Source of the DNA: Pseudarthrobacter oxydans | Lineage (GTDB): Bacteria; Actinomycetota; Actinomycetes; Actinomycetales; Micrococcaceae | DNA length: 64,000 nt | Assembly: GCF_034258515.1 (NCBI RefSeq) | Contig: NZ_CP139438.1 | Span: forward strand, 434,001-498,000 | Reading direction: 5' to 3' | Shown here: piece after piece, positions 27,532 through 33,224 of the stretch | How the letters are laid out: the number at the start of each line of letters is the position of its first letter | Numbering within the stretch: the stretch's first letter is position 1 | The notes under the pieces: model-generated | Told to the model about the DNA's origin: nothing | The model's database searches: none | What the model saw: only the letters and a program-made list of their open reading frames with translations | Position numbers and translations under genes: made by a program

Positions 27532-28254
27532 TCAGGACGAACCCGCGGCCTGCTTCGCCTCGAGCACCAGGTTCTTCAGGTCGTCCAGGGTCTGCTGCAT
27601 GTGCGCGTCCATGGCCTGCCGAGAACGGGTGGCATCCCGCGACTCCAGCGCTTCGGCAATGTTCTGGTGGTGCCGGATCGCATGCTCCTGGATCTCACGG
27701 ACGGCCGAGGTTTCAGTGCGCCGCTTTTCCAGCACCCGGTGCAGCGGCTCGAACAGCACAGCCACGAAGACGTTCTCCGAGGCATGCAGGATCAGGTCGT
27801 GGAAAGCCAGGTCCGCGGCCACGAACGCGGCCACGTCATTGACTTCGTGGGCGGCACGCATGGCCGCCACATAGCTGTACAGGGCCTGGATCTCAGCGTC
27901 GCTGATCCTTCCCGCCGCCAGTTCACAGGCGCCGGCTTCCAGCATGCGCCGCAGTTCGATGAGCTGGATGGAAGCGTCAGCCTCGTTCTTGCCCTCGGAA
28001 GCGGCGCGCAGCACGGCCTCCAGCGATGCCCAGCGGTTGAGGGGGTTCACGAACGTGCCCCGGCCCCGCTCGACGCTCAGGATCCGCTGCGCCTGGAGCG
28101 TTTTCATGGCCTCGCGGACCGTCATCCGGCTGACCTCATGCCGGGCGCTGAGCTCATGCTCGCCGGGGACGGTGGCGCCGGGCGGGAACTCACCGGCGAT
28201 GATGCGGTCCAGGAGCTCGTCGGCCACCTGGCCCACCAGTGATTGCCTCGCCAT
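27532..28254 (-). CDS. GntR/FadR-family regulator of the acid-sugar operon
   Basis: This 240-residue regulator has a winged helix (about 8-75: VPGEHELSARHEVSRMTVREAMKTLQAQ) and an FCD domain (about 90-225) with metal-binding residues in DLAFHDLILHASEN and HAIRHHQNIAEAL. It is divergent from the DUF1537 kinase operon. Two TGTCnGACA palindromes lie in the shared 159-base promoter, one near each gene, which supports autoregulation plus control of the operon. The ligand is probably the imported acid sugar or a downstream intermediate. Confidence 0.88.
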   Translation of the reverse strand: MARQSLVGQVADELLDRIIAGEFPPGATVPGEHELSARHEVSRMTVREAMKTLQAQRILSVERGRGTFVNPLNRWASLEAVLRAASEGKNEADASIQLIELRRMLEAGACELAAGRISDAEIQALYSYVAAMRAAHEVNDVAAFVAADLAFHDLILHASENVFVAVLFEPLHRVLEKRRTETSAVREIQEHAIRHHQNIAEALESRDATRSRQAMDAHMQQTLDDLKNLVLEAKQAAGSS

Positions 28255-28282: not shown

Positions 28283-28291
28283 TGTCAGACA
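28283..28291. promoter_or_regulatory. GntR operator 1 (TGTCAGACA)
   Basis: A palindromic TGTC-A-GACA lies 28 bases before the regulator's start codon. It shares its TGTCnGACA core with the longer site at 28341-28357, fitting FadR-subfamily operators, whose half-sites are usually GTn/nAC. Confidence 0.6.
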
Positions 28292-28340
28292 AGTCTACTT
28301 GCGCGTCGTTATGTCCTGTGCCACACTAAAAACCAAATGC

Positions 28341-28357
28341 AAGATGTCTGACATCTT
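28341..28357. promoter_or_regulatory. GntR operator 2 (perfect 17-bp palindrome)
   Basis: AAGATGTCTGACATCTT is a perfect 17-bp palindrome centred on T28349, 56 bases before the kinase GTG. With operator 1 it brackets the divergent promoters. Confidence 0.72.
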
Positions 28358-28413: not shown

Positions 28414-29892
28414 GTGACGCTTGAAACAGACGTCCTGGCCGCGTATCCGGCCGAGGTCCGGATTCCCGCCGAACTGGTAGCCAGCATCCTGGCTGCCTCC
28501 AACGCGGAGACCCCGCGTGTCCTGGTCGTGCTCGACGACGACCCCACCGGAACGCAGTCCGTGGCAGACCTGCCCGTGCTCACCCGCTGGGACGTGGAAG
28601 ACTTCATTTGGGCTTTCAGCCAGTCGAAGCCTGCCGTCTACGTCCTCACGAACACCCGCAGCCTGGACCCTGCCGAGGCTGCCGCCCGCAATGAGGAGGT
28701 GGTCCGCAATGCCCTCGCAGCAGCGGGTTCCCCGGAAGAACTGCGCCTTGGCTTCGTCAGCCGCAGCGATTCCACCCTCCGCGGCCACTACCCCCTGGAG
28801 CCGGACGTCATCGCCGCCACAGTATCGGACGTCAGCGGGGAAAAAACCGACGGCGTTGTGCTGGTTCCAGCCTTCCCCGACGCCGGGCGGGTCACCATCG
28901 GCGGCGTCCATTACATGCGCGGCACCGCAGACGCGGCCGGCACCCTCATCCCTGTGTCCGAAACAGAGTTCGCCAAGGACGCCACCTTCGGCTTTTCCAC
29001 CTCCGTAATGGCTGACTACGTCGAAGAGAAGTCCAAGGGCCGCTTCGCCGCGGACACGGTCATCGTCCTGGATCTGAACATCATCCGCGCCGGCGCGGCA
29101 GCCCAGGACCCTGCCATCTCTGCCAACGCCATCGCCGACGCAATCGAACGGGCCACCGATTCCACCCCCATCGTGGCGGACATCGTGACCGAAAACGACC
29201 TCCGTGCCCTGTCCCTCGGCCTGGAAGAAGCCGAACGGCGCGGCAAGAAGCTCCTTTACCGCGTAGGCCCTCCCTTCGGCCGTGCCCGGATCGGCCAGGA
29301 AATCCGCGCCGAACTCACCGGCGCGGAAGCCTACGCCGGAAACACCCCGTCGGTAGCAGGCGGCCTGATCGTCGTCGGCTCCCACGTCGGCGTCACCACC
29401 CGCCAGCTCAAGGCCCTGACGGAGCAGCACAGCGCCGCACGCATCGTGGAGATCGACGTCGAAAAGCTCCTCGGCCCGGAATCCGCCAGCCACTTGGACC
29501 AGACGGTGGACGCCGTCGTCGAGGCCCTCCGCGGCGGGGACGTCATCGTCCACACCAGCCGCCTGCTCATCAAGACAGACGACCCGGCCGAAAGCCTGCG
29601 GATCGCACGCACCGTGTCCGCCGCCGTCGTCGCCGTGGTGAACCGGACACTGAAGACCTTCCCGCCGCGGTTCGTCATCGCCAAGGGCGGAATCACCTCC
29701 TCCGACGTGGCCGCCCACGGCCTGGAAATCCGGCACGCCATTGTCCGCGGCCCCATGCTTCCCGGCATCGTCTCGCTCTGGGAACCGGTGGACGGCCCCG
29801 CCAAGGGCATCCCGTACATCGTCTTCGCCGGCAACGTGGGCGACGACCAGTCACTGGCCGACGTCACCCGCAAGCTCAGCAACACCTTCTAA
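28414..29892 (+). CDS. Four-carbon acid sugar kinase (DUF1537)
   Basis: This 492-residue kinase is of the family that phosphorylates 3-oxo-tetronate, D-threonate or D-erythronate. The N-terminal sugar-binding domain shows VLVVLDDDPTGTQSVADLPV, VYVLTNTRSLDP and SRSDSTLRGHYPLEPDV. The C-terminal nucleotide-binding domain shows GGLIVVGSHV, RFVIAKGGITSSDVA and PYIVFAGNVGDDQSL. It is full length. The GTG start has ACGGAG seven bases upstream. It is the first gene of an operon with a dehydrogenase, permease and aldolase, so it probably acts after the dehydrogenase. OtnK- and DtnK-type activities cannot be separated by eye, so I give no symbol. Confidence 0.9.
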   Translation: MTLETDVLAAYPAEVRIPAELVASILAASNAETPRVLVVLDDDPTGTQSVADLPVLTRWDVEDFIWAFSQSKPAVYVLTNTRSLDPAEAAARNEEVVRNALAAAGSPEELRLGFVSRSDSTLRGHYPLEPDVIAATVSDVSGEKTDGVVLVPAFPDAGRVTIGGVHYMRGTADAAGTLIPVSETEFAKDATFGFSTSVMADYVEEKSKGRFAADTVIVLDLNIIRAGAAAQDPAISANAIADAIERATDSTPIVADIVTENDLRALSLGLEEAERRGKKLLYRVGPPFGRARIGQEIRAELTGAEAYAGNTPSVAGGLIVVGSHVGVTTRQLKALTEQHSAARIVEIDVEKLLGPESASHLDQTVDAVVEALRGGDVIVHTSRLLIKTDDPAESLRIARTVSAAVVAVVNRTLKTFPPRFVIAKGGITSSDVAAHGLEIRHAIVRGPMLPGIVSLWEPVDGPAKGIPYIVFAGNVGDDQSLADVTRKLSNTF

Positions 29893-29936
29893 CCCCCACC
29901 GGCTCCAGATCCCGCACACATTCAATGGAGAACACC

Positions 29937-30836
29937 ATGACCAGCAACTACACCGTCACAGTCCTGGGCCTCGGCGCCATGGGCCTGCCCATGGCCACCC
30001 GCCTCGCGTCCCAGCTGACAGTCCACGGCTTCGACATCGCCGAACCGCGCCTGAAGCTCGCCGAAGAAGCCGGCATCGCCACCTTCGCCTCTGCCCGCGA
30101 AGCCGCCAAGGGTGCCGACGCCGTGCTCCTGGCCGTCCGCAACGGCGAGCAGCTCAACGACGTCCTCTTCGGCGAGAACGGCGTGGCCTCCGTGCTTGAG
30201 CCCGGCGCCGTCGTCATCCTTGGCAGCACCGTGGGCACCGAAGCCATCCCCGCCACGGTGGCCAAGCTCGCCGAATACGGCGTGGACCTCGTTGACGCAC
30301 CGCTGTCCGGAGGCCCCAAGCGCGCCGGCGAGGGCGACCTGCTGATCGTCGTCGGCGCTTCCCCCGAAGCCCGCGAAAAGGCAGCCCCCGCGCTGGACCT
30401 GCTGGCTTCCACCCTGACCGTTGTGGGCGACAAGCCCGGCGACGGACAGGCCCTCAAAACCGTCAACCAGCTCCTCTGCGGCGTGCACATCGCCGCAGCG
30501 GCCGAAGCCATGGCCCTCGCCGACGCCCTCGGACTGGACCAGGCCAAGACCCTCGCCGCCCTCGAGGCCGGCGCCGCGGGCTCGTTCATGCTGTCCAACC
30601 GCGGGCCGCGCATCCTTGAGGCCTACAACGAGGAAGGCGCCGAGGTCCTCTCCCGCCTGGACATCTTCGTCAAGGACATGGGCATCGTGGGCAAGGCCAC
30701 CCGTGCCGCCGGCCTGGCAGCTCCGGTTGCGGCTGCTGCCGAGCAGCTCTACCTGCTGGGCCAGGCCCAGGGCCTCGCCGCCGCCGACGACTCCGCCGTC
30801 ATCAAGGTCGTTGCGCCCACAAGGCGCACCGCGTAG
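29937..30836 (+). CDS. Beta-hydroxyacid dehydrogenase (LtnD/GarR-like)
   Basis: This 299-residue NAD(P)-dependent enzyme of the 3-hydroxyisobutyrate dehydrogenase superfamily has the Rossmann motif VTVLGLGAMGLPMATRL, the substrate loop DAPLSGGPKRAGEGDL, and the catalytic Lys region ALKTVNQLLCGVHIAAAAEA. LtnD relatives oxidise L-threonate. GGAG lies before the ATG at 29937; an ATG four codons earlier is part of that ribosome site. It follows the kinase by 44 bases. It probably supplies the keto-acid that the kinase phosphorylates. Its position (C2 or C3 oxidation) is not determinable from sequence. Confidence 0.87.
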   Translation: MTSNYTVTVLGLGAMGLPMATRLASQLTVHGFDIAEPRLKLAEEAGIATFASAREAAKGADAVLLAVRNGEQLNDVLFGENGVASVLEPGAVVILGSTVGTEAIPATVAKLAEYGVDLVDAPLSGGPKRAGEGDLLIVVGASPEAREKAAPALDLLASTLTVVGDKPGDGQALKTVNQLLCGVHIAAAAEAMALADALGLDQAKTLAALEAGAAGSFMLSNRGPRILEAYNEEGAEVLSRLDIFVKDMGIVGKATRAAGLAAPVAAAAEQLYLLGQAQGLAAADDSAVIKVVAPTRRTA

Positions 30837-30861
30837 CCACTTTCCTCAACCAGCGCCTGAT

Positions 30862-30885
30862 GGCCGGTCTTCCGGAAGACCGGCC
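30862..30885. repeat. Perfect 24-bp palindrome inside the acid-sugar operon
   Basis: GGCCGGTCTTCC is followed immediately by its exact reverse complement, with no loop beyond the central bases. It sits between the dehydrogenase stop and the GntP ribosome site. It may be an mRNA processing or stability hairpin, an attenuator, or an operator. Confidence 0.6.
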
Positions 30886-30906
30886 TGTCAAAGGAGACAC
30901 CCCGAA

Positions 30907-32373
30907 ATGAACCACCTGATGCACCCGCTGATCGCGCGGGCGGCTGAAACTCCAGCCATCAAACCCGCAGTGGAGCTTGGCACTCCGCTGCTCCTGACCA
31001 TCGCAGCCCTCGGCATTGCCGTGCTGCTGGTCATGATCATCCGCTTCAAGATCCAGGCCTTCGTTGCCCTGCTCACCGTCAGCATCCTGGTTGCCGTCGC
31101 TGCCCAGATCCCGCTCAAGGACGTCTTCACCGTTGTCGCCAACGGTGTCGGCAGCACCATGGGCAAGGTGGCATTGCTGATCGCACTCGGCGCCGTCCTG
31201 GGCCGCATGATCGAGGTGTCCGGCGGCGTCCAGTCCCTCGCTGCCCACTTCACCGCAAAGCTCGGCGCCAAGCGGGTTGCCGTGGCCCTCACCGCCGTCG
31301 GCTTCCTGGTGGCCATTCCGGTCTTCTTCGAAGTCGGCGTCATTGTGCTGGTCCCCATCGTCTACGCCTTCGCCAAGATCGCCAAGGTGCACCCGGTCAA
31401 GTTCGGCCTGCCCATGGCCGGCATCATGCTCGCCATCCACGTGGCCGTTCCGCCGCACCCCGGCATCGTGGCAGGTGCCGGCGTCTTCGGTGCCGACATC
31501 GGACTCATCACCCTGATCTCCCTGGCCATCTGCATTCCCCTGGGCTTCCTGTCCTACTGGGTTGCCAGCATCATGAACCGCAAGGAGTACGAGCTCCTCC
31601 CGTCCGTCAAGGCACAGGTTGAAGAATTCGGCTCCGACTCGCTGGTCAAGGTAGGCCACGACGGCCCCGGCGCCATGGCTGTTGCCCCGCCCCGTCCCGG
31701 CCTGATCATCTTCCTCATCGCCGCCCCGATTGTGCAGATCCTCCTTGGCACCCTGGGCACCCTCTCCATCCCCAAGGACAACTCCTGGTACGGCCTGGCC
31801 GCGTTCATCGGCAACCCGTTCTTCGCGCTGCTGGTGGCCGTTGCGCTGTCCTTCTTCCTGCTGGCCGTCCGCCGCAACTGGTCGCTGAAGGAAACCGGCG
31901 AAATCTTCGAGGGCGCCCTGCCCCCCATCGCCTCCATCCTGATGGTGGTTGCCGCCGGCGGCGTGTTCGGTGAAGTCCTCCGCACCTCCGGGATCGGCGC
32001 CGCCCTCTCCCAGACCCTGGACCACCTGGGCCTGCCCGTCATCGCCCTTGGCTTCGTCATCTCCCTGGCCCTTCGCGCTGCGCAGGGTTCGGCCACCGTT
32101 GCCATCGTGACCACCACCGGCCTGCTGACGTCCGCCGTGATGGAAGGCGGCTACACCCCGGCCCAGATCGCCGTGATCGTCATCGCCATCGGCTTCGGTT
32201 CGCTCGGCCTGTCCCATGTCACCGACGCCGGGTTCTGGACCGTGGTGCGCTACTACGGACTCACTGTTTCGGACGGCCTGAAGACATGGACCGTCCTGAC
32301 CACCATCCTGGGCCTGGCCGGCTTCGTCCTGACCTTCATGGCCTGGATCCTGGTGGGAGGCCTGGGCGTCTGA
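30907..32373 (+). CDS. GntP-family gluconate/acid-sugar:H+ symporter
   Basis: This 488-residue permease has about 12-14 membrane segments with family motifs (GVGSTMGKVALLIALGAVLGRM, PVFFEVGVIVLVPIVYAFA, MAGIMLAIHVAVPPHPGIVAG, SLALRAAQGSATVAIVTTTG, GLSHVTDAGFWTV). It imports gluconate-like acids across the cytoplasmic membrane. AAAGGAGA lies before the ATG at 30907. Its stop overlaps the aldolase start (TGATG). Being embedded with the DUF1537 kinase, it most likely carries a tetronate or related short aldonate rather than gluconate. Confidence 0.92.
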   Translation: MNHLMHPLIARAAETPAIKPAVELGTPLLLTIAALGIAVLLVMIIRFKIQAFVALLTVSILVAVAAQIPLKDVFTVVANGVGSTMGKVALLIALGAVLGRMIEVSGGVQSLAAHFTAKLGAKRVAVALTAVGFLVAIPVFFEVGVIVLVPIVYAFAKIAKVHPVKFGLPMAGIMLAIHVAVPPHPGIVAGAGVFGADIGLITLISLAICIPLGFLSYWVASIMNRKEYELLPSVKAQVEEFGSDSLVKVGHDGPGAMAVAPPRPGLIIFLIAAPIVQILLGTLGTLSIPKDNSWYGLAAFIGNPFFALLVAVALSFFLLAVRRNWSLKETGEIFEGALPPIASILMVVAAGGVFGEVLRTSGIGAALSQTLDHLGLPVIALGFVISLALRAAQGSATVAIVTTTGLLTSAVMEGGYTPAQIAVIVIAIGFGSLGLSHVTDAGFWTVVRYYGLTVSDGLKTWTVLTTILGLAGFVLTFMAWILVGGLGV

Positions 32374-33224
32374 TGCGTACCCGACTCGACCGCCTGGTGA
32401 CCGCCGCCCTCCAGCAGGGTTCCGCCATCCCGGCCTTCACCTGCTACGACTTCACGACGGCGCTGGCCGTGGTGGCAGCGGCGGAGGAATCCGGCCGCGG
32501 CGTCATCCTGCTGGTGGCCCCGAAGACTGCCGCCACGTCGAACGGCCTGCGCCTCGTCGGTGCCCTCCGTGGCCTCGCTGACGCTGCGTCCGTCCCGGTG
32601 GCGGTGCAGCTTGACCACGCAACGGACCTTCGGGTGATGGCCGACGCCGTTGCGGCAGGGGCGGATTCCGTCCTCGCCGACGGTTCCTCCCTCCCTTACG
32701 AGGACAACATTGCGCTGGTCCGGGCGGCCCGTGCGCTGCTGGGGCCGGACGTGGTACTTGAAGCCGAGCTTGGCGGGCTCGCCGGCGACGAGGACCGCGC
32801 CTTCAGCGCGGACCAGTCCGGCGTCGCCGTGGCCGGCCTCACCGACTCCGCCCTGGTGGAGGACTTTGTGGCCCGTACCGGCGCGGAACTGCTGGCTGTC
32901 GCCGTCGGAAACGTCCACGGTAAATACAAGGGCGAGCCGCAGCTGCGCTGGGACGTGCTGCAGGACATTGCGGTGCGCACGCACCTTCCGCTGGTCCTGC
33001 ACGGCGCTTCCGGAATCCCGGCGGAGGAGCTGGTGAAGGCGGCCTCCATGAACGTTGGCAAGGTCAATTTCAACACGGAGCTCCGCACCGGCGTCCTGGC
33101 CACACTGGAGGAGCAGCTACCGGGCCACCGCGCCGACGGCGAGAACCTGCAGGCGCTCCTGGGCCACTGGAACAGCTCCGCCCGCGACTTCGCAACCACC
33201 ACGCTGGCGACGCTCACGCGCTGA
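32373..33224 (+). CDS. Class II aldolase of the Fba/GatY/KbaY family
   Basis: This 283-residue zinc-dependent TIM-barrel aldolase shows the conserved elements: QLDHATDL with the first zinc His, DGSSLPYEDNIALV, EAELGGLAGDED, the zinc His in AVGNVHGKYKG, the zinc His in LVLHGASGIPAEE, and KVNFNTEL for phosphate binding. It should make or stabilise the enediolate of dihydroxyacetone phosphate. The start overlaps the permease stop (TGATG). This is unusual for a tetronate operon, which normally has the unrelated OtnC decarboxylase plus OtnI. A rho-independent terminator follows, marking the operon end. Confidence 0.87.
   Translation: MRTRLDRLVTAALQQGSAIPAFTCYDFTTALAVVAAAEESGRGVILLVAPKTAATSNGLRLVGALRGLADAASVPVAVQLDHATDLRVMADAVAAGADSVLADGSSLPYEDNIALVRAARALLGPDVVLEAELGGLAGDEDRAFSADQSGVAVAGLTDSALVEDFVARTGAELLAVAVGNVHGKYKGEPQLRWDVLQDIAVRTHLPLVLHGASGIPAEELVKAASMNVGKVNFNTELRTGVLATLEEQLPGHRADGENLQALLGHWNSSARDFATTTLATLTR

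Follow-up and report, generated by a model that had tools for sequence, protein, structure and literature searches.

In the current work, a five-gene unit comprising genes for a regulator, a kinase, a dehydrogenase, a permease and an aldolase-family enzyme was delineated from the open reading frame (ORF) list and a Pfam scan of a 64,000-nucleotide stretch of Pseudarthrobacter oxydans DNA (hereafter referred to as the window). This unit is interpreted as a catabolic operon for L-threonate, perhaps also for D-erythronate, which would be degraded by a three-step route, and a probability of about 0.86 is assigned to this interpretation. L-threonate is a breakdown product of vitamin C, and the acid derived from plant vitamin C may serve the Arthrobacter group as a food source. 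In all likelihood, the operon represents a known three-step pathway, carried by a relative of the strain in which that pathway was studied. The first-pass annotation of this DNA had claimed a new pathway variant; this novelty is not upheld, since the route has already been published (Guo et al. 2024, as summarized in PMC12540250).

The account given in PMC12540250 attributes to Guo et al. 2024 a three-step bypass that dispenses with the OtnI isomerase. In it LtnD generates 2-oxo-L-threonate, from which 2-OtnK and 2-OtnC lead to dihydroxyacetone phosphate (DHAP), and the three proteins from Arthrobacter sp. ZBG10 serve as the reference enzymes. The same account assigns an F_bP_aldolase domain to 2-OtnC and an Aldolase_II domain to Escherichia coli 3-OtnC, and reports that cyanobacteria also possess the three-step enzymes. 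As cited there, Guo et al. 2024 speak in their title of an “in vitro characterization” and name D-erythronate too, a further point in favour of the reading given above. The window operon encodes the same three protein families as described for ZBG10, a strain classed in Arthrobacter, with an F_bP_aldolase-type OtnC candidate and no OtnI, and this correspondence of LtnD, SBD_N/NBD_C kinase and F_bP_aldolase supports the three-step reading.

Gene content and conservation of the operon

The kinase gene (28414-29892, + strand) encodes the SBD_N and NBD_C domains of a DUF1537 acid-sugar kinase (Pfam PF07005 and PF17042, 2.1e-47 and 4e-34) and is proposed to specify the 2-oxo-tetronate kinase 2-OtnK; its sole NCBIfam match is the D-threonate kinase model (59 bits against a cut-off of 450), and the 3-oxo-tetronate kinase model was not matched in the NCBIfam scan. 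It is followed by a gene for a beta-hydroxyacid dehydrogenase (29925-30836, + strand; PF03446 and PF14833, 2.1e-34 and 1.7e-28), which resembles the L-threonate 2-dehydrogenase LtnD, is 35% identical to E. coli YgbJ, and for which L-threonate dehydrogenase is the first-ranking NCBIfam model, in keeping with the proposed function. The third gene encodes a GntP-family permease (30907-32373, + strand; PF02447, 5.2e-117) that passes NCBIfam PRK09821 (672 bits, cut-off 524) and is 50% identical to E. coli YgbN; the mechanical ORF, beginning at 30421, is over-long, and the start was re-set to the likely position 30907, which is preceded by AGGAG.

The operon is closed by a class II F_bP_aldolase-family enzyme (32373-33224, + strand; PF01116, 2.6e-63), proposed to be a 2-oxo-tetronate 4-phosphate decarboxylase (2-OtnC), whose domain is F_bP_aldolase and not Aldolase_II. 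Its start was re-set from 32286 to the ATG at 32373, which fits the relatives and overlaps the stop codon of the GntP gene in a TGATG, and the resulting length of 283 amino acids is shared by the majority of the nearest homologues listed. Twenty NCBIfam aldolase models are listed as matching this protein, each below its cut-off (the first with 171.3 of 384), and among those listed none of the cut-offs for fructose or tagatose bisphosphate aldolases (GatY, KbaY, Fba) is passed. Public labels for the protein include “tagatose 1,6-diphosphate aldolase GatY/KbaY”, an automatic assignment that the operon reading would correct. The Pfam scan revealed no further enzyme gene in the operon, and the anatomy described by the first-pass annotation, namely a DUF1537 kinase, a dehydrogenase, a GntP permease and a complete class II aldolase at the end, is confirmed by the ORF list and the Pfam matches.

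The statement of the same annotation that the isomerase and OtnC are missing was borne out at the level of the genome, which by its nearest relatives belongs to the Arthrobacter/Pseudarthrobacter group and consists of a single contig of 4.44 Mb, when the OtnI model NF043033 and the OtnC model NF043034 were applied with their curated cut-offs (in 14 control genomes each model exceeded its cut-off in 1 of 14, E. coli being among the matching controls). The OtnI model produced four matches genome-wide, none of them over the cut-off (best score 148.6, cut-off 325). The best-scoring protein, encoded at approximately 4.005 Mb and 28% identical to E. coli YgbM, scores 242 on the hydroxypyruvate isomerase model and is also under that cut-off (353), while a second, weaker OtnI-like protein at 0.931 Mb reaches 99.7 of 325 bits (28% identity to YgbM); PF01261 has 19 matches in this genome. 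The OtnC model yielded one match genome-wide, and this scores under the cut-off (67, cut-off 250) and passes the L-ribulose-5-phosphate 4-epimerase model (379.6, cut-off 251). That neither model gives a match over its cut-off in the genome favours the three-step reading, as does the presence of three other class II aldolases, which leave the operon enzyme free for another task, so that it need not serve glycolysis.

As regards an OtnC encoded elsewhere, both Aldolase_II matches of the genome were set aside: one is an L-ribulose-5-phosphate 4-epimerase according to the model and lies beside a gene read as ribulokinase, and the other, a 720-codon frame, was taken from its size for a probable RhaD-type fusion. 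PdxA was likewise rejected as the last enzyme, the sole PdxA match sharing one open frame with a second DUF1537 domain. This 812-amino-acid frame (L109:7056-9494, - strand; genome approximately 1185055-1187493) adjoins a DeoR-like regulator gene and corresponds to a fused version of the D-threonate pair of DUF1537 kinase and PdxA.

Neighbouring genes were surveyed at the best 80 of at least 189 confirmed relatives, chosen by aldolase similarity, all of which carry the title Arthrobacter, Pseudarthrobacter or Paenarthrobacter except one Cryobacterium. Kinase, dehydrogenase and aldolase occur together in 78 of these 80 loci, and with thresholds of E 1e-10 and 40% cover none of the 80 carries a homologue of E. 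coli ygbL or ygbM (OtnC and OtnI); this combination argues for the three-step route, and the three-gene set is accordingly kept in nearly all Arthrobacter-group loci examined. The gene order of the window is found in 77 loci, in 71 of which a GntP permease gene separates the dehydrogenase gene from the aldolase gene, and a GntR/FCD homologue heads the cluster in 74 of the 80. The exceptions are L034, without a dehydrogenase match, and L077, a 9.7 kb contig without kinase and dehydrogenase matches; in the Cryobacterium locus (L081) the gene order differs. The permease is of two sorts, being either 78-96% or 55-57% identical, and has no match in 6 of the 77 loci, so the slot between dehydrogenase and aldolase (window 30907-32373; L003-L082) is occupied by either GntP type or by neither, with the enzymes constant.

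A wider sample was provided by 296 evenly drawn Actinomycetota genomes, 16 of which, including that of the window, carry a kinase homologue at E 1e-30, and regions from 14 of the remaining 15 were compared by homology. An aldolase match lies beside the kinase in three of these regions (L132, of the same genus, L135 and L142), kinase and dehydrogenase occur without a neighbouring aldolase in seven (L133, L134, L136-L140), and neither dehydrogenase nor aldolase is matched in four (L141, L143, L144 and L145). An aldolase search of 13 of these genomes gave matches at E 1e-15 in 10, and in 3 of the 10 the match lay at the kinase locus. In L144, one of the regions without either match, the DUF1537 kinase is a distant one (36%), and its gene lies next to one for an OtnI-like protein (33% to YgbM) and one of the racemase family (L144:5641-8396).

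Seven plasmid records contain a kinase match, and five of them were compared. On the Rhodococcus antarcticus and Deinococcus taeanensis plasmids (L127:4854-7859 and L128:5171-8234) genes for an aspartate/glutamate-racemase-family protein, the kinase and an F_bP aldolase are consecutive, both rows being close to genes of sugar ABC transporters. The Niallia, Ligilactobacillus and Priestia plasmids (L129, L130 and L131) carry genes for GntR, a GarR-like dehydrogenase, a DUF1537 kinase and a GntP permease, and OtnI, OtnC, PdxA and F_bP aldolase gave no match within 6 kb there. Since the Priestia dehydrogenase passes the cut-off for 2-hydroxy-3-oxopropionate (tartronate semialdehyde) reductase, the Priestia operon may have a different substrate.

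The terminal enzyme and competing explanations

The fold of the window enzyme is evident from its sequence, and the class II F_bP_aldolase hallmark is present in it by alignment with GatY/KbaY, in which D82, H83, H180 and H208 align with the retained residues D81, H82, H182 and H210; these positions presumably correspond to the three zinc-binding histidines and the catalytic aspartate. Position 79, the first histidine of the HxDH motif, is glutamine in 81 of 81 aligned Arthrobacter-type rows, whereas it is histidine in 15 of 15 other aldolases; among four other kinase-linked rows it is glutamine in one and histidine in three. A simple pattern found glutamine at this position in 119 of the 120 nearest database proteins and histidine in 118 of 120 proteins related to the R. 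antarcticus enzyme; in each case the pattern missed the remainder. Residue 184, two positions after a zinc histidine, is lysine in 72 and arginine in 9 of the 81 Arthrobacter-type rows, and elsewhere it is T, L, H or I (four other kinase-linked rows) or V, S, M, L, A or Q (15 others). Q79 and a basic residue 184 are therefore marks of the Arthrobacter lineage and not common to all kinase-linked aldolases.

The only row to group with the window lineage in a 36-row tree is K_L135 (support 100/99), a kinase-linked aldolase that was read to its first stop (239 amino acids, with one in-frame TGA counted there); the lineage is separate from the rows of GatY, KbaY and Fba, a placement which favours the three-step reading. 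The R. antarcticus and L142 aldolases fall in a different group (95/92), and the D. taeanensis enzyme (K_Dtaean) sits on a long branch with an unsure place, as do own_L083, own_L084, own_L085 and IolJ_Ma.

If the operon functions as the ZBG10 set is described to do, GntP would import the acid, the LtnD-like enzyme would oxidize C2 to give 2-oxo-tetronate, and the DUF1537 kinase would phosphorylate this 2-oxo acid at O4 without a prior OtnI step. The F_bP-type class II enzyme would then convert 2-oxo-tetronate 4-phosphate to DHAP and CO2. A 2-oxo acid would have to lose CO2 directly by way of an acyl anion, usually thiamine-bound, and a carbonyl shift to C3 before decarboxylation is therefore the likely order on grounds of general chemistry. 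Zinc would polarize the 2-oxo/3-hydroxy pair, and a 2,3-enediolate would move the carbonyl to C3, this being the OtnI step performed on the phosphorylated acid; decarboxylation of the resulting beta-keto acid could then produce the DHAP enediolate that is also formed in aldol cleavage, and protonation of this enediolate would free DHAP. This proposal retains the enediolate idea of the first-pass annotation but assigns the OtnI step to the same enzyme. The decarboxylation to DHAP by a class II enzyme, as envisaged in that annotation, agrees with the published pathway, but the starting compound reported there is the 2-oxo- and not the 3-oxo-tetronate (PMC12540250). How an aldolase barrel performs both an isomerization and a decarboxylation is the enzymological question raised by this route.

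Several observations weigh against the three-step interpretation. The LtnD-like dehydrogenase scores 245 bits, below the curated L-threonate dehydrogenase cut-off of 350, and the likeness to the assayed ZBG10 enzymes is one of protein families as described, not of aligned sequences. Kinase and aldolase are not constantly paired outside the Arthrobacter group: of the 14 regions compared, 3 have an aldolase beside the kinase, 7 have kinase and dehydrogenase without one, and 4 have matches to neither dehydrogenase nor aldolase, L144 with its OtnI-like match beside the kinase being one of these 4. Furthermore, the four kinase-linked aldolases outside Arthrobacter fall at three places in the tree.

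Among the alternatives, a four-step pathway, in which OtnI activity would be supplied by a hydroxypyruvate-isomerase-like protein from elsewhere and in which the aldolase would act on 3-oxo-tetronate 4-phosphate, could draw on the two YgbM-like proteins mentioned above. The gene for the first of these is nevertheless distant from the operon (4.005 versus 0.462 Mb), where it adjoins a GarR-like dehydrogenase gene and an allantoinase-like gene (the latter name being read from sequence), and the kinase does not match the 3-oxo-tetronate kinase model, which makes this pathway very unlikely. Retention of the residues equivalent by alignment to the zinc ligands and the catalytic aspartate of GatY/KbaY would suit a true retro-aldol reaction, in which a longer acid sugar (a pentonate or hexonate) is oxidized, phosphorylated and then split into DHAP and an aldehyde acid. 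This possibility, also put forward by the first-pass annotation, found no positive support and is considered highly improbable: the gene set equals that of the published C4 pathway, the HxDH histidine retained in all comparison aldolases is replaced by glutamine throughout the lineage, and the operon holds no further enzyme gene, although the last point is weak because the product could enter general metabolism.

That the last gene encodes an ordinary fructose or tagatose bisphosphate aldolase merely adjoining the operon would be in line with its family, its motifs and the twenty aldolase models that it matches below their cut-offs. Its stop-start overlap with the permease gene, an adjacency kept in 78 of 80 loci, its separate clade in the tree and the three other class II aldolases of the genome speak against this explanation, which is regarded as scarcely credible. 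A bolder and on the whole doubtful extension of the three-step reading would make the Arthrobacter 2-OtnC lineage a dedicated isomerase-decarboxylase built on an aldolase barrel, with Q79 and K/R184 binding the carboxylate and abolishing aldol cleavage; relatives without a neighbouring aldolase might finish the pathway by means of a housekeeping class II aldolase, thereby showing the origin of the activity. The carboxylate-binding role of Q79 and residue 184 is a guess.

Comparison with other known systems

In Arabidopsis, LTD (At1g18270) combines LtnD, the SBD_N/NBD_C kinase and F_bP_aldolase and is required for L-threonate metabolism, its knockouts losing L-threonate dehydrogenase activity and accumulating L-threonate; according to the same source the dehydrogenase activity is the step demonstrated, not the later steps (PMC12540250). 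LTD differs from the window operon in that it is one fused protein with two LtnD units, whereas the window has separate genes (PMC12540250). PMC12575324, in which Guo et al. are cited as well, yielded no information about the enzymes. The four-step pathway of E. coli ygbJKLMN (Zhang et al. 2016 as cited in PMC12540250), the functions of which are listed in PMC12506659, shares with the window an LtnD, a DUF1537 kinase and a GntP-type permease. It differs in having OtnI and an Aldolase_II-type OtnC, for neither of which the window genome passes the model. A DUF1537 kinase is also common to the DUF1537/PdxA pathway for D-threonate, reportedly described by Zhang et al. in 2016, which uses PdxA; in the window genome DUF1537-PdxA constitutes a separate single open frame.

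Candidate regulatory region

A gene for a GntR/FCD transcriptional regulator (27532-28254, - strand; Pfam GntR 5.6e-20, FCD 1.4e-24) is divergent from the operon, and the regulator is likely to be its repressor. A candidate GntR operator in the intervening DNA is a perfect palindrome, AAGATGTCTGACATCTT (28341-28357), located 13 bases beyond a candidate promoter (TTGCGC, 17 nt, CACACT; 28299-28327, + strand) that was read by eye within a conserved block. GntR would repress by binding to this palindrome immediately downstream of the promoter. An upstream half-palindrome, TGTCAGACA (28283-28291), represents a candidate second operator.

The upstream DNA was compared in 55 regions, being the window and 54 of the 80 loci (26 loci were excluded because a gene match was lacking or the distance was outside 40-600 bases). 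The palindrome core GATGTnnnACATC is present in 53 of the 55 regions, TTGCGC and CACACT at a spacing of 16 to 18 in 49, and a separate second TGTCnGACA in 36. The palindrome AAGATGTCTGACATCTT is the only match in the window at up to 3 mismatches (0.11 expected) and the only perfect copy in the genome. A genome search for other GntR targets retrieved 24 places, that of the operon being perfect and the other 23 having 3 mismatches, and a reversed control pattern gave 15 places, so that most of the 23 are likely to be due to chance. One of these 3-mismatch sites lies between GntR-like and MFS-like genes (names read from sequence) in a polyol-type cluster 43 kb upstream. This cluster (L174:4688-11902; genome approximately 414.7-421.9 kb), again with names taken from sequence, encodes a TIM-barrel isomerase, dehydrogenases, a DhaK-like kinase and a GntR protein, and contains a TGTCAGACA palindrome resembling the one in the operon.

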